Positions 42,013 through 47,607 of a DNA stretch of 64,000 nt are shown piece by piece. Numbering within the stretch: the stretch's first letter is position 1; every line of letters begins with the position of its first letter. The translations under genes were made by a program, and so were the position numbers. The DNA comes from Roseimaritima sediminicola (lineage in GTDB: Bacteria; Planctomycetota; Planctomycetia; Pirellulales; Pirellulaceae), in contig NZ_WIAD01000003.1 in the NCBI RefSeq assembly GCF_009618275.1, positions 62,001 through 126,000 of the forward strand. Reading direction: 5' to 3'. Under the pieces are notes generated by a model. It worked only from the letters and a program-made list of their open reading frames with translations. It made no database searches and was not told the DNA's origin.

Positions 42013-42156
42013 CAATCCTCTATCAACGACCTGTCGATAGTTGCTACAGACTATCTTGACGTTTTGCGGGCGATCCCGCGATGGTCCCAGCGAAGGCTTT
42101 TTCCAAAATGACAACGATTTCCCTGCGTTCGCCCCCCCGCCGACGCCGTCGTACCA

Positions 42157-42207
42157 GTGGCATAGGCTTCCAGCCTGTGAACAGTGGCATAGGCTTCCAG
42201 CCTGTGA
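42157..42207. repeat. Dispersed palindromic repeat, two tandem copies
   Basis: GTGGCATAGGCTTCCAGCC followed by TGTGA occurs at 42157-42180 and again at 42184-42207, spaced 27 bp. The same element occurs reversed at 29221, 52119 and 52145, and degenerate at 59504. Here it reaches into the start of the lipoprotein gene and contains its presumed GTG start codon (42204). Confidence 0.88.
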
Positions 42208-43667
42208 ATCCTGCCCCCCGATCCTTCGCTCTCCTGCTGCTGTGTGGCGTGCTGGCCGTGATGGGTTGCGGTGGCGACGCGCCGAATTCGACCGAATCGC
42301 TTGGCGCCGGCGAAGCGGCTGCCGATTCGGAGTTCTCGCCTGCGACCCAGTCGGTCCGCACGGTGGCTCGACCGATGCCCGCCGGCGAAGCGGCTTCGGG
42401 CACCGGTTCCCAGGCGGCCGCCCGGCGATTGCTGGAAACCATGTTGGCTCGTTACCGCGCCGCGACCGCTTACCAGGATCGCGGCGTGGTCAGGCTCAGC
42501 TACCGGCAAAACGGGGTGCCGCAGACGGATGTGGCGCCGCTGAGCGTTCAGTATCGGGCTCCGGACCGCGTCTCCCTGCACGCCTACAGTGTCCAACTGG
42601 TTTGCGATTCCGGCCGGCTGATGGCCCAGGTCGTGGACCCCACGACCGACAACTTCGATGGGCAACGGCTGCTGCGGAACCTGGACCAGGCCGCGGTCAC
42701 CATGCAGGCCATCTATGCCGATCCCGTAATCACCCAGCTGGCCAGTGCGGGATTGGGCGGTCCGAGTCCGCAACTGGAGCTGTTGTTGGGCGAGACGCCC
42801 CTGTCGGGCCTGGTCGGAGCCGAGTCGCGGTTGTCGCTGGGCAAAGCCGCACGGCTGGACGGCTACGATTGCCAGAGTCTGCAGATCGAAACGGAATCGA
42901 TCCACTACGTACTGTGGATCGATCGCCAAGCCTTGCTGCTGCGGCGGATCGAGTTGCCGCTGGTGTTGGTGCCGGGCCTGTTGGATGACGTTTCCATTGA
43001 AGACGCGCATTTGACCATCGATTTGACTGCGGCCAGCTGGACGCCACCGGCCGAGCAGGCATTTGCGCTGCCGCCGCGGCAGGGCGGGCCGTGGGTCGAG
43101 CGAATGGTGCCGCTGCCGCCACCGCTGGAAAGTCCGCTGCTGGGCAAAACTGCCGAAGCGTTCGAGTTGTCGGCCAACGAGGCTTCGGGATCGTCGCCGT
43201 TTCGGGTGAACCACCGTGGCAGCGACCGAGACATCATCGTTCTGCTGTGGGTGGCGCGCCACGAGGGTTCTCAGGCCGCCGCGTTGGCCCTCGACGAGAT
43301 CGAACAGCGACTGGACGAGCGCACTCGCAGAAACGTGCGTTTTTTAATCGTCATGACCGAAGCGGGACCGCCGACCGGCCAGACGTTAGGGCAGTGGGAC
43401 GTGACCTTGCCGTGGACCGACGACACCGAGGCGGTGGGCCGCGACGTGTTTGGCGTGCAGCACGCTCCGGCGCTGAGCGTCCTGGGCCGCGGCGGCACGG
43501 TGCAGTGGTTCCAGCACCCGCTCGAACCCGGCGCGATGCAGGCTTTGCCACAGGTAATCGCCGACCTGCAAGCCGGCGCGGAGGTGGGCCGAACGTTAGC
43601 CGAAGATCACCAAGCCAACCAACAAGCCTACCGAGCCGCCCTGCATGAAGCCGCCGCCACCCCGTAG
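42204..43667 (+). CDS. Lipoprotein with LolA-like and thioredoxin-like regions
   Basis: A protein of about 487 residues. From GTG at 42204 it begins with a compact lipoprotein signal ending 'LAVMGC' (C22). In-frame ATG codons at 42081 and 42108 would add Arg-rich residues and two translated copies of a dispersed repeat, which look unlike a real N-terminus. Residues about 75-300 ('RRLLETMLARYRAATAYQDRGVVRLSYR', 'SLSLGKAARLDGYDC', 'VLWIDRQALLLRR') resemble the LolA/DUF2092 fold that binds lipids or lipoproteins. The C-terminal 150 residues resemble thioredoxin-like alkyl-hydroperoxide reductase proteins ('DIIVLLWVARHEG', 'VFGVQHAPALSVLG') but lack C-x-x-C. Function is inferred to be envelope-related only. 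Confidence 0.72.
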   Translation: MNPAPRSFALLLLCGVLAVMGCGGDAPNSTESLGAGEAAADSEFSPATQSVRTVARPMPAGEAASGTGSQAAARRLLETMLARYRAATAYQDRGVVRLSYRQNGVPQTDVAPLSVQYRAPDRVSLHAYSVQLVCDSGRLMAQVVDPTTDNFDGQRLLRNLDQAAVTMQAIYADPVITQLASAGLGGPSPQLELLLGETPLSGLVGAESRLSLGKAARLDGYDCQSLQIETESIHYVLWIDRQALLLRRIELPLVLVPGLLDDVSIEDAHLTIDLTAASWTPPAEQAFALPPRQGGPWVERMVPLPPPLESPLLGKTAEAFELSANEASGSSPFRVNHRGSDRDIIVLLWVARHEGSQAAALALDEIEQRLDERTRRNVRFLIVMTEAGPPTGQTLGQWDVTLPWTDDTEAVGRDVFGVQHAPALSVLGRGGTVQWFQHPLEPGAMQALPQVIADLQAGAEVGRTLAEDHQANQQAYRAALHEAAATP

Positions 43668-43747
43668 CCAGCAGATCTCAAATTTCAGATCTTATGACTC
43701 CGGCGGAATCAATGTATGGCTCGGAGCGATAGAATGCAACGTTTTCT

Positions 43748-43804
43748 CCCCTCTCCCCCGCTGCGCCGCGAGCGTCAGCGAGTGAAGCAGTGGTGGGAGA
43801 GGGG
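43748..43804. repeat. Imperfect inverted repeat inside the MITE-like element
   Basis: CCCCTCTCCC (43748-43757) pairs with GGGAGAGGGG (43795-43804), and GCTGC with GCAGT after a short mismatch, over a loop of about 25 bases that itself contains AGCGTCAGCGAGTG. Confidence 0.7.
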
Positions 43805-43920
43805 CCGGGGGTGAGGGGGCTCGGGTGCAACGGAATAGCTCTTGAATTACGATCCCCAGGGCCGTGCCGCATCGAGATACGGCAATGGTGCTGCTGCTCT
43901 GCATTCCCCCTCGCCCCCAA

Positions 43921-43976
43921 CCCCTCTCCCCCGAAGCCTGACTCGCTTAGGCTCGCCAGGCTTCGGGGGAGAGGGG
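43921..43976. repeat. Perfect 20-bp inverted repeat inside the MITE-like element
   Basis: The left arm CCCCTCTCCCCCGAAGCCTG (43921-43940) is exactly complementary to 43957-43976, with a 16-base loop. This would form a very stable hairpin in RNA or single-stranded DNA. Confidence 0.93.
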
Positions 43977-44088
43977 AGTAAACGATTCTATTTGTACATA
44001 GATTCCGTTAGAGTCAGCAAATTTCAAATTTCAGATCTCAAATTTCGAATCCCACCCCCAAACTCTGGCGAGTTCGGCTACGGGCGTC

Positions 44089-47000
44089 TCACGCTTTGGC
44101 GACGCTTAATTCGCCGTCCTGACCGGCGACGCTGAGCGGCTGCGGCTCCGAACCCGGAACGCGCTGTTCGAGAATCTCGTCGGCCAGCGTCTCGCGGCGG
44201 ATCATGTCCCGGTGCTCATCGACCGCTTGCTTGACGTCGTTGCTCTCGGTCAGGATGCCGACGACGATCCGATCGACGAACTCACAGCCCATCTCCTTGC
44301 GGCGGCTCTGAATGAAACGGATCAGATCGCGGGCGATGCCTTCGCGAAACAGTTCCGGCGTGACTTCGGTGCTCAGTACGACCACGCTGTTCGGCCCCTG
44401 CGTCGCGGCCGAACCCTCGCGAGCTTGCAGACGAACCTGGATGTCCTGGTCATCCAGCCGCAGGGTTTCCTCACCGACGGTCAACTCGATGAAGCCGTCG
44501 GCCTGCAGACGAGCCATCAATTCACCGCCATCGGCTTCGGCCAACTGTTTCTTGACCGCTGGAACGTTCTTGCCGACGCGCGGTCCGAGCCGTTTGAAGT
44601 TGGGCTGGACGCTGTAGTGCACCAGGTCTTCGGCGTCGGTGACGTACTGGACGGCTTTCACGTTTAACTCACTTTGCACCAACGCATCGTGTGCCTTCAG
44701 CCACGGGACGTGCTGTTGGTCGGGCAGCACGACGGTCACGGACGCCAGGGGCTGGCGGACCTTGAGTTTGGCTTCGGCCCGCGCCGCCCGCCCCAGCGAG
44801 GCGATTTCGCGAAGCAGCTGCATGCGGGTGGACAACGTCTGGTCGATCCGGGACGCGTCGCTTTTTGGGTAGTCGCACAGATGCACGCTTTCGGCCGTTT
44901 TGCCGCTGCCGACGAAAGGACGCGTCAGTTCCTGCCACAGGCTTTCGGCCAGGAAGGGCACGAACGGAGCGATCAACTTGGTGACTTCGACCAGCGTTTC
45001 GTACAGCGTCCAGAACGCGTCCAGCTTGTCGGCCGACCGTTTGTCCTTGGCCCAGAAACGGTCGCGGCTGCGACGCACGTACCAGTTGCTCAGCCCATCG
45101 ACCAGAGCGGTAATCTGTTGGCAGGCACCGTAGTTGTCATAGGCATCCATCCGTTCGGTGACGGCGGCGATGGTGCGGTTCAGTTCCGAGAGGATCCAGC
45201 GATCGATCTCGCTGCGTTCGCTCGCCGGGCGATAACCTTCGCCGCCGGCCAGTTCCGCGGGCGACAGTTGACCGCTGGTCAGTTCAACGCCCGCGGTCGG
45301 ATCGAACTCGTCGATCTCGGCGTAGATCGTAAAGAAGCTGAACACGTTCCACAGCCGCAGCAGAAATTCCGGAATGGAATCGCGGATCGTGCGTTCGCTG
45401 TACAGGATCGACGTCCAGGGCGGTTGGTTGGCAAAGAAGTACCACCGCAGGGCGTCGGCACCATACAGGTCGAAGATCTCGTCGGGGCTGCGGTAATTGC
45501 GCAGCTGCTTCGACATCTTGCCCACTTTCTTTTCAAAGGCGCCGCCGAACTTTTCCTTGGCGTCGGCTTCGGTCAGGGCGATGTTTTTCTTGTCGCCCTT
45601 CTTGGGCTCGTACCACTCGGCCATCATCAGGCCCAGCACGATGCAGTTGCGGAACGGATGCGGCCAGGGCTGGTCCGCATCGGCCGCCACGTCGACGCTG
45701 TTTCCGGCGGTTCGCTGCGGCGGCCCGTCGCCGTCGGTTGCCGCCTGGGAATCCGGTCCGAACAACAGCGTGCTGATCGCCAATTGGCTGTAGAACCAAC
45801 CGCGAGTTTGGTCCAACGCTTCGCTGATAAAGTCGGCCGGGAACTGCTGGCGGAATTGTTCGCGGCTGCCTTCCTGGTGCGGGTAACCCAGCTGGGCGAA
45901 GGGCATCGCACCGCTGTCGTACCAGCAATCGATCACTTCTTCGACTCGCTGCATACGGGCCCCGTCGGCAAAGGGCGAATCGTAGGTGACCGCGTCGATG
46001 TAGGGTTTGTGAACGCGCAGATCGTCCGCCAGTTCGGGGTTTTCGGCCTTGGCCTTCTGCCAGACCTCGGTGCCCTGGACGCCGGGCTTGGCCAGCAGTT
46101 CTTCGTAGTTGCCGATGGCTTCCATGCGGCCGGTTTGCTGGCACACCCAGATCGGCAGCGGTGTCCCCCAGAAACGTTCACGCGATAGCGCCCAGTCGAC
46201 ATTGGAAGCCAGGAAATTGCCGAAGCGGCCGTCGCGAATGTGTTCGGGCAACCAACCGATCCGAGCGTTGTTGGCCAGCATCTGGTCTTTGAACTGGGTC
46301 GTGCGAATGAACCAGCTCTCCCGCGGATACTGGATCAACGGGTCCTGTTCGGCTCGCCAGCAGAACGGGTAATCGTGCAGGTACTGTTCCTGGAAAAACA
46401 GCAGACCGCGTTCTTTCAGGTCGCGTGTGATCGGTTTGTCGGCGTCTTTGACCCACATCCCGGCAAACGGGCCGGCCTGCTCGGTCAGTTTGCCGTCGGA
46501 AGCCACACAGTGGAACAGTTCCGGTTGCTGTCCTTCCACAAAGCGTTGCTGTTCAGTGGAGAGCACCTCGTAGTCGACTTCGCCGAAGGCCGGGGCTTGG
46601 TGGACCAGTCCGGTACCGCTGTCGGTGGTGACGAAATCGGCCGCGACCACGCGCCAGTAGTGGGCCTGACGGCCGCCGGCGACCAGGTCGCCTGCGGCGT
46701 CTGCTTTATCGGCATAGAAAAAGTCGAAGGGCGGCCGGTAGCGCAGGCCGATCAGGTCGCTGCCCCGGCAGGTTTCCAGAACCGTCAGTTCCTGCTTGGT
46801 CTTGGTGGCGATGGCTTCCACCAGGTCGGCGGCGATCCACAGTTCCTGGTCGCTGTCGGCCACGCGGACCAACGCGTACTGCAACTCCGGATTGACCGCG
46901 GCGAACATATTGCTGGGCAGGGTCCAGGGCGTGGTGGTCCAGACCAACAGGCCGCGTCGGGGCGTATCGACCAGCGGAAAGGTCACGAACACACTGGGAT

Positions 47001-47607
47001 CGGCCACTTGGCGATAGCCCTGCCCGACTTCGCCCGAGGACAGGGCCGTGCCGCCTTGGGCCCACCACCAGACGATCTTGTGTCCCTGGTACAGCAGCCC
47101 GCGGTCGAACAGGTTCTTCAGACTCCACCACACGCTCTCGATATAGCTTTGGTGGTAGGTCACGTAGGCCGATTCCAGATCGACCCAGAACCCCAGCCGC
47201 TCGGTCAGGCGTTCCCACTGCTGCATGTACCGCCAGACGCTCTGCTGGCAGCGTTGGACGAAGGGTTCGACGCCGTAGGCTTCGATCTCTTCCTTGCTGT
47301 GGATGCCCAGTTCCTTGCCGACTTCGACCTCCACCGGCAAACCGTGCGTATCCCAGCCCGCCCGGCGTTCACAGCGAAAGCCCTGCATGGTTTTGTAGCG
47401 GGGAAACACATCCTTGATGGCGCGGGTCAGGCAGTGCCCGGGGTGCGGCAAGCCGTTGGCCGTGGGCGGACCTTCGTAGAACACAAAGGACGGAGCGTCC
47501 TGGCGGCGGGCCAGCGATTTGGCATAGATGTCGCGCTGCTTCCACAGCTCCAGCACCTGCTCTTCGCGCTTGGGAAAGGATACGTCCGTCGAGACTGCTT
47601 TGAACAT
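44089..47607 (-). CDS. ileS: Isoleucyl-tRNA synthetase, type 2 (eukaryotic-like)
   Basis: Charges tRNA-Ile. The 1172-residue protein has the HIGH-type motif 'LPHPGHCL' near residue 55 and 'KMSKQLRNY' (KMSKS type) near residue 700, with a full editing domain between ('[16 protein letters not shown]') and the anticodon-binding part after ('[18 protein letters not shown]'). The length, the 'KMSKQ' form and the long C-terminal extension fit the IleS2 group, which resembles the eukaryotic enzyme; this group is typically less sensitive to mupirocin. The ATG at 47607 lies three bases after the stop of a very acidic protein, so the two share a transcript. The MITE-like element lies just beyond its stop. 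Confidence 0.95.

Follow-up and report, generated by a model that had tools for sequence, protein, structure and literature searches.

The segment that separates a lipoprotein gene from ileS in the 64-kb window (the whole stretch of DNA analysed here) very probably belongs to a family of MITEs, non-autonomous transposable elements with inverted repeats. The traits of bacterial MITEs seen here are 23-bp terminal inverted repeats (TIRs), the lack of coding capacity in the window copy, and dispersed copies at unrelated sites; target-site duplication, a further such trait, is supported by an identity between the two flanks of the same copy that exceeds that in shuffles, its length being ambiguous. 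An earlier note, made from the sequence of the window, had proposed a small non-autonomous element at this place, and the proposal is borne out by the many copies in the genome, their unrelated flanks, and the absence of the element from the orthologous spacer of a relative of the same genus (G001). Those copies and that absence contradict the opposite picture, a single copy conserved in place, which the note held would speak against mobility.

General features of the site are summarized in Table 1. The earlier note had described a repeat-rich stretch of about 375 bp between the two genes, and all of its repeats were recovered: the perfect direct repeat of 15 nt (TCAAATTTCAGATCT; copies 43678-43692 and 44024-44038); the imperfect terminal inverted arms of 50-60 bp, made up of inverted arms at 43740-43788/43936-43984 (49 nt, 80%) and the 23-bp TIRs at 43694-43716/43995-44017; and the internal inverted repeats, the perfect one being 43921-43940/43957-43976 (20 nt). 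Two more inverted pairs are an imperfect one (43795-43819/43906-43930; 25 nt, 88%) and a shorter, perfect one (43748-43757/43795-43804; 10 nt, 100%), and the interior of the window copy as a whole is an inverted doublet of palindromes. The 23-bp TIR consensus of the family is CTGACTCYRRCGGAATCTATGTA. For the limits 43672-44046 that had been given to the stretch, the gene-free repeat structure holds and the ends do not, as aligned copies and TIR pairing give 43694 and 44017. Conservation in 30 aligned loci (L004 and L023 being one copy) runs from CTGACTC to GAGTCAG, with unrelated flanks on either side; because the aligned copies are conserved only between these motifs, the window element is taken to be 43694-44017. 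Likewise the perfect 15-bp direct repeat is present and does not bound the element as its duplication: both 15-mers lie outside 43694-44017 and are a heptamer repeat, one unit out of register.

Table 1. Coordinates of the element, its parts and its neighbours in the window.
Feature	Position	Strand	Basis or remark
Element with type A interior, 324 bp	43694..44017	.	copy alignment, TIR pairing and end-to-end hairpin fold
Left TIR, ATGACTCCGGCGGAATCAATGTA (consensus begins CTGACTC)	43694..43716	+	
Right TIR, CTGACTCTAACGGAATCTATGTA	43995..44017	-	
Left interior palindrome (CCCCTCTCCC ... GGGAGAGGGG)	43748..43804	.	inverted pair
Right interior palindrome, 20-nt perfect arms	43921..43976	.	inverted pair
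Spacer separating the two inverted halves; to the eye, the region that varies most across copies	43820..43905	.	
Left flank in heptamer register (CAGATCTCAAATTTCAGATCTT); 19/22 identical to right flank	43672..43693	.	
Right flank heptamer tract, CAAATTTCAAATTTCAGATCTCAAATTTCG	44018..44047	.	
15-mer of the earlier note, left copy	43678..43692	.	
15-mer of the earlier note, right copy; one heptamer out of 15-bp register	44024..44038	.	
Neighbouring gene, called lipoprotein in the earlier note; 3' end towards element	42081..43667	+	
ileS; 3' end towards element	44089..47607	-	

The whole element folds into a single end-to-end hairpin of -189.5 kcal/mol (z -11.9); none of 100 dinucleotide shuffles (mean -126.2, sd 5.33) was as low, and the inverted-repeat structure is therefore beyond chance. 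The earlier note had seen no coding frame in the stretch, and indeed only four open reading frames (ORFs) of at least 60 aa overlap the element (63-97 aa), in which a Pfam scan returned no match at E<=0.1; the MITE reading explains them as non-coding. An Rfam search gave no family at gathering score anywhere in the 64-kb window, and no promoter- or terminator-like site was seen at the element. The element sits between convergent genes, the lipoprotein gene ending on the plus strand at 43667 and ileS having its minus-strand stop at 44089, and what ileS presents to the element is its 3' end, not its 5' end. A T-box or other ileS leader was considered and rejected, because the genes converge and the ileS stop faces the element, and because Rfam offers no match.

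The home genome (G000) is a 6.25-Mb draft in 185 contigs. With 40 of 243 first-look candidates scored, the element and its flanks match 46 places in it, one being the window site itself; 45 of the 46 matches extend over at least 280 bp, and the copies other than that of the window are 82-91% identical to it; within the bounds of the element the best identity is up to 94%. The TIR pattern, allowing up to 3 mismatches, has 224 matches in this genome (113 + 111) and none for a reversed control, so that the genome-wide search for copies which the earlier note had suggested gave a positive answer. TIR pairing in 97 fetched stretches and the window yielded 89 pairs, comprising 77 G000 units, 10 G001 units and two false long pairs that were dropped; the fetched G000 stretches cover 170 of the 224 TIR matches (the window's two excluded). 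Among the pairs set aside, one of 1548 bp at L088 is false, spanning a long ORF resembling a membrane protein, and one of 5657 bp at L152 was dropped as a presumed chance pairing; a 944-bp pair at L202 has a poor right end with 6 mismatches. Eight of the 77 units are shorter than 200 bp and three measure 549-676 bp; the long units L107 and L113 each cover two adjoining genome matches. For the units of 300-350 bp (n=49), the closest pair is 96.6% identical and the median nearest neighbour 93.2%. No recent jump is visible among them, and near-identical copies may have been collapsed in the 185-contig draft; several copies lie at contig ends, as expected for repeats in a draft assembly.

In a set of 60 genomes, G000 with 59 relatives, only G000 was found to have the full element, and six others match over at most 73 bp. 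The TIR search gave 21 matches in G001, of the same genus, and no match in G002 and G003. In G001, L086 (~2228-2268) is a remnant of some 41 bp, barely more than two element ends with target sequence on both sides. Only 10 of 396 genomes of the order have any TIR match, with many in just G000, G001 and G335, two in G377, and one in each of the remainder. A scan of named genomes, which may leave out the home genome and very near ones, returned five stretches, all from the MAG Planctomycetales bacterium HKST-UBA42 (G407), where the TIR has 21 matches when up to 3 mismatches are allowed. Four of the searched genomes contain the family in many copies: home, G001, G335 (another genus) and HKST-UBA42. 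No description of it emerged from the literature that we searched for planctomycete MITEs, palindromic or heptamer repeats, long duplications and inverted-repeat elements of Pirellula-type genomes, a coverage that mostly omits subscription papers.

The 23-bp TIRs form a constant shell, and the palindromic interior within it varies between genomes and within G000. Type A, that of the window copy, carries CCCCTCTCCC palindromes; type B, in units of about 285 bp, carries GTAGCCCCAGGC palindromes; and type C is a third interior kind in G000. The 77 G000 units divide into 54 of type A, 15 of type B, three mixed A/B (one of which, L113, covers two copies), two of type C and three others, in a sample biased towards type A by the choice of such a copy for the first search. 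Elsewhere the interior is of type D in G001 (mostly 295 bp), type E in HKST-UBA42 (232 bp in two copies) and type F in G335. Genomes that have no shell match (e.g., G048, G051 and G056) also contain 26-31 nt of the type A palindrome, and for that reason the palindromes seem to exist apart from the shell, as passengers. Four type A relatives (L115 at 1679, L137 at 2024, L139 at 1860 and L140 at 1850) have stems that differ in sequence yet are near-perfect palindromes, which suggests exchange or compensatory change.

Palindromes of this sort raise the alternative of a REPIN- or BIME-like element, in which inverted pairs of REP-type palindromes are spread by a Y1 (RAYT) transposase. The doublet in the interior, the shell-less genomes that hold the 26-31-nt stretch, and the Y1_Tnp matches (28 in G000, G001 and G002 together, 7 of them in G000) are what such an element would display. 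We nevertheless judge it improbable, for the conserved, copy-defining part is the outer 23-bp TIR, under which the palindromes are swapped, and it is the TIRs, not the palindrome, that bound the mobile unit. Moreover, nine of the 28 Y1 loci, four of the seven in G000 among them, were inspected as REP/RAYT candidates and showed neither shell nor type A core; CCCCAGGC octamers are found at two of the nine (L204 and L208).

Of the three same-genus genomes, only G001 yielded the lipoprotein-ileS pair; it retains an ileS orthologue of 86% identity and a lipoprotein orthologue of 59% over residues 114-525. The spacer between them contains neither shell nor heptamer tract, and a different palindrome doublet is found there instead. 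This comparison is compatible with insertion after the split from G001, and the spacer is not a base-precise empty site; of the empty-site search proposed in the earlier note, the spacer without the element was thus obtained and a clean, base-precise site was not. The G001 doublet (L215, ~1258-1500) is a free one resembling the type A interior, the motif GAGCGTCAGCGAG being common to both. At the G002 locus and in two G003 contig pieces, the neighbourhood of ileS contained no shell, and the lipoprotein gene was not seen.

Gene context was compared for gaps with and without an element, using gene calls from a crude codon model trained on the window. Convergent gaps make up 36 of the 81 with an element and 14 of the 105 without (p 2e-6), divergent gaps 6 of 81 and 31 of 105 (p 2e-4); counted per element, 36 of 70 are in convergent, 29 in tandem and 5 in divergent gaps, and 7 of 77 at stretch edges were left unclassed. 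This placement fits purging from promoters, preferential targeting of tracts close to the 3' ends of genes, or a role at 3' ends, and the placement data do not separate the three. The last recalls an alternative to which we give very little credence, a structured RNA or 3'-end regulatory cassette retained for function and not selfish; the earlier note had allowed for a structured RNA cassette. Enrichment between convergent genes, the very strong fold and the other palindrome doublet in the same place in the G001 spacer are in keeping with it; however, the interior is wholly replaced while the ends persist, the element is absent from the G001 spacer, and depletion from divergent gaps is also predicted by selection against promoter damage. 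For a structured RNA the fold is the one positive sign, with no Rfam match and no promoter- or terminator-like site found.

The copies are mostly flanked by AT-rich tracts of AGATTTG-like heptamers, or by SARATYTS-like sites. A 15-mer of the tract, GAGATTTGAGATTTG, has 633 matches in G001, 87 in G000 and 54 in G025; it is present in six of the 60 genomes and absent from 54, including two of the same genus. The tracts, abundant in G001, G000 and G025, exist independently of the element, because G025, with its 54 matches, has no shell match. Flank identity over 15 bp is 0.690 within the same copy and 0.579 between different copies (z 8.3, n=74), and over 8 and 22 bp, too, the same-copy value is the higher (z 7.5 and 5.7, respectively; n=74 for both). 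Registers scoring at least 8 bits occur in 37 of 76 copies, at 8 (6 copies), 15 (18), 22 (9), 29 (2), 36 (1) and 34 bp (1); the last, the best register of L085, is the sole one scored outside the series 7n+1, and by another score 37 of the 76 copies have no register above 2 bits. The best register of the clear copies (n=28) is 8 bp in 5, 15 bp in 15, 22 bp in 6 and 29 bp in 2. Mis-paired flanks favour 15 bp too (5.3 clear cases per shuffle), because the heptamer phase is common to the targets, and the length of the duplication is confounded by heptamer periodicity. At the window site itself, 12 of 15 positions agree in the 15-bp register and 19 of 22 in the 22-bp register; the perfect 15-mer of the earlier note is the flank sequence of the window copy shifted one heptamer rightwards. 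The doubt in that note about a 15-bp duplication was justified, the flanks being heptamer tracts and the clear duplications 8, 15, 22 or 29 bp. Gaps of less than 100 bp between adjoining copies (n=15) are exactly 15 bp in 10 cases and fit 7n+1 in 13; the others are 16 and 84 bp.

Several sites are not clean heptamer repeats and can therefore tell the registers apart. Their flanks match over 15/15 at L062 and 14/15 at L124 in the 15-bp register, over 25/29 at 29 bp at L127, and over 8/8 at 8 bp at L159; an uninterrupted paralogue of the L062 host repeat aligns gaplessly to the junction once 15 bp are removed (65 bp, 89%). The flanks of L118 match 8/8 at 8 bp (CAAATTTG), with the element in the middle of a comparable host palindrome, and the same uninterrupted paralogue fits removal of 15 bp better than of 8 (87.7 vs 79.8 bits). 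A match of 15/15 at L147 lies inside a tandem array, where unit duplication could equally account for it. Nine pairs from G335 and HKST-UBA42 include 8/8 at 8 bp for L159 and L190, 7/8 at 8 bp for L161 and L183, and 21/22 at 22 bp for L196; the remaining four show no duplication, one of them, L271, having a doubtful left end. A separate, dispersed AT-rich palindromic repeat (GATTGCAAATTGCA...TGCAATTTGCAATC; L123, 1226-1290) hosts insertions, and also flanks L062, L118, L127 and L108.

A single 8-bp duplication for all copies is ruled out by L062 and L124 (15 bp) and by L127 (25/29 at 29 bp), and a single 15-bp duplication by the 8/8 matches of L159 and L190 at 8 bp and by the copies with 22 or 29 bp. 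Either the stagger of the cut genuinely changes by whole heptamers, or later gain and loss of units has blurred a duplication of 8 bp; L062, L124 and L127 favour a heptamer-stepped cut for some copies. Duplications of 15 bp and tandem copies 15 bp apart are also what a Cas1-type, casposon-like integrase would leave, with its 14-15-bp duplications and the tandem copies that arise when it inserts into its own target. The excerpts of one report describe a casposon with a duplication of 14 letters and a mini-casposon that inserts in tandem at the casposon's own target site (PMC10359463), which likewise speaks for this alternative. We nevertheless consider it very unlikely, since HKST-UBA42 and G335 have duplications of 8 bp, and duplications of 22 and 29 bp are found elsewhere.

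The earlier note had also suggested a search for a transposase with matching ends; neither this nor an autonomous copy was found among the loci and solo ends inspected, in stretches covering 170 of the 224 G000 TIR matches. Solo ends compared with known interiors (n=44; the comparison held no reference interior for the type F solo ends of G335) mostly run into shortened copies or into contig or stretch ends, and similarity ends within about 90 nt at L066 (1681), L067, L076 (2113), L093, L113 (1870), L147 (10822) and L149 (7663). A Pfam scan of 30 of the ORFs listed behind 14 other solo ends returned no transposase, the confident matches being to host-type genes (e.g., for an rRNA methylase, a sulfatase and an aminotransferase). 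In G001, each of the 14 perfect tip-plus-target matches is a known TIR end or the far end of such an element. An IS4-family transposase was tried as a candidate without a positive result: the 12 loci inspected from 54 PF01609 (DDE_Tnp_1) rows in three genomes, including all three of G000, have no matching ends. The first eight bases of the consensus resemble the Tn5/IS50 end, and serve as a lead only.

Under the preferred reading, that of a MITE family, a putative transposase acting in trans would recognise the 23-bp shell, cut the target with a stagger tied to the heptamer spacing (8 bp where there is no tract), and then insert the element. The palindromic interior would be passenger DNA, probably acquired by recombination, with a direction and mechanism of capture that are likewise presumed, and copies would survive mostly where they are least harmful, away from promoters. 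We also put forward, tentatively and as rather unlikely, that the fixed shell is a vehicle that loads and spreads host palindromes, and that its enzyme nicks the two strands independently at heptamer boundaries, leaving duplications quantised at 8, 15, 22 and 29 bp. The family joins three repeat classes that are usually kept apart, namely MITEs, REP-like palindromes and heptamer tracts, and suggests a possible route by which palindromic repeats spread among planctomycete loci. The stepped duplication lengths, if real, would mean that the stagger of a transposase can be dictated by the periodicity of its target.

Several known systems resemble the family in part. The ends of IS50/Tn5 (IS4 family) have the tip CTGACTCT in common with the element end, and the duplication made by IS50/Tn5 is 9 bp, close to 8; the remainder of the element end differs, however, and such ends were lacking at the 12 of 54 DDE_Tnp_1 loci inspected. 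Bacterial MITEs in general, of which the excerpts of PMC3733652 name RUP, NEMIS and Nezha, are alike in their short TIRs, lack of coding capacity, dispersed copies and flank duplication, whereas here no matching autonomous insertion sequence was found in the stretches examined, the interior is swapped under one shell, and duplications of 7n+1 occur at heptamer tracts. The REP, BIME and REPIN palindromes of the same excerpts (PMC3733652) are similarly intergenic inverted doublets in many copies; in the present family, by contrast, the palindromes lie inside a TIR-bounded element, and the nine loci checked show no link to Y1. Finally, the heptamer repeats of Nostoc and Xanthomonas are, in the excerpts of PMC4692102, intergenic and generally without association with mobile elements. 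They are alike as intergenic tracts, and the GGGGATT unit (PMC4692102) also flanks the L098 copy; unlike the repeats in those excerpts, the heptamer tracts described here are the usual insertion sites of a mobile element.
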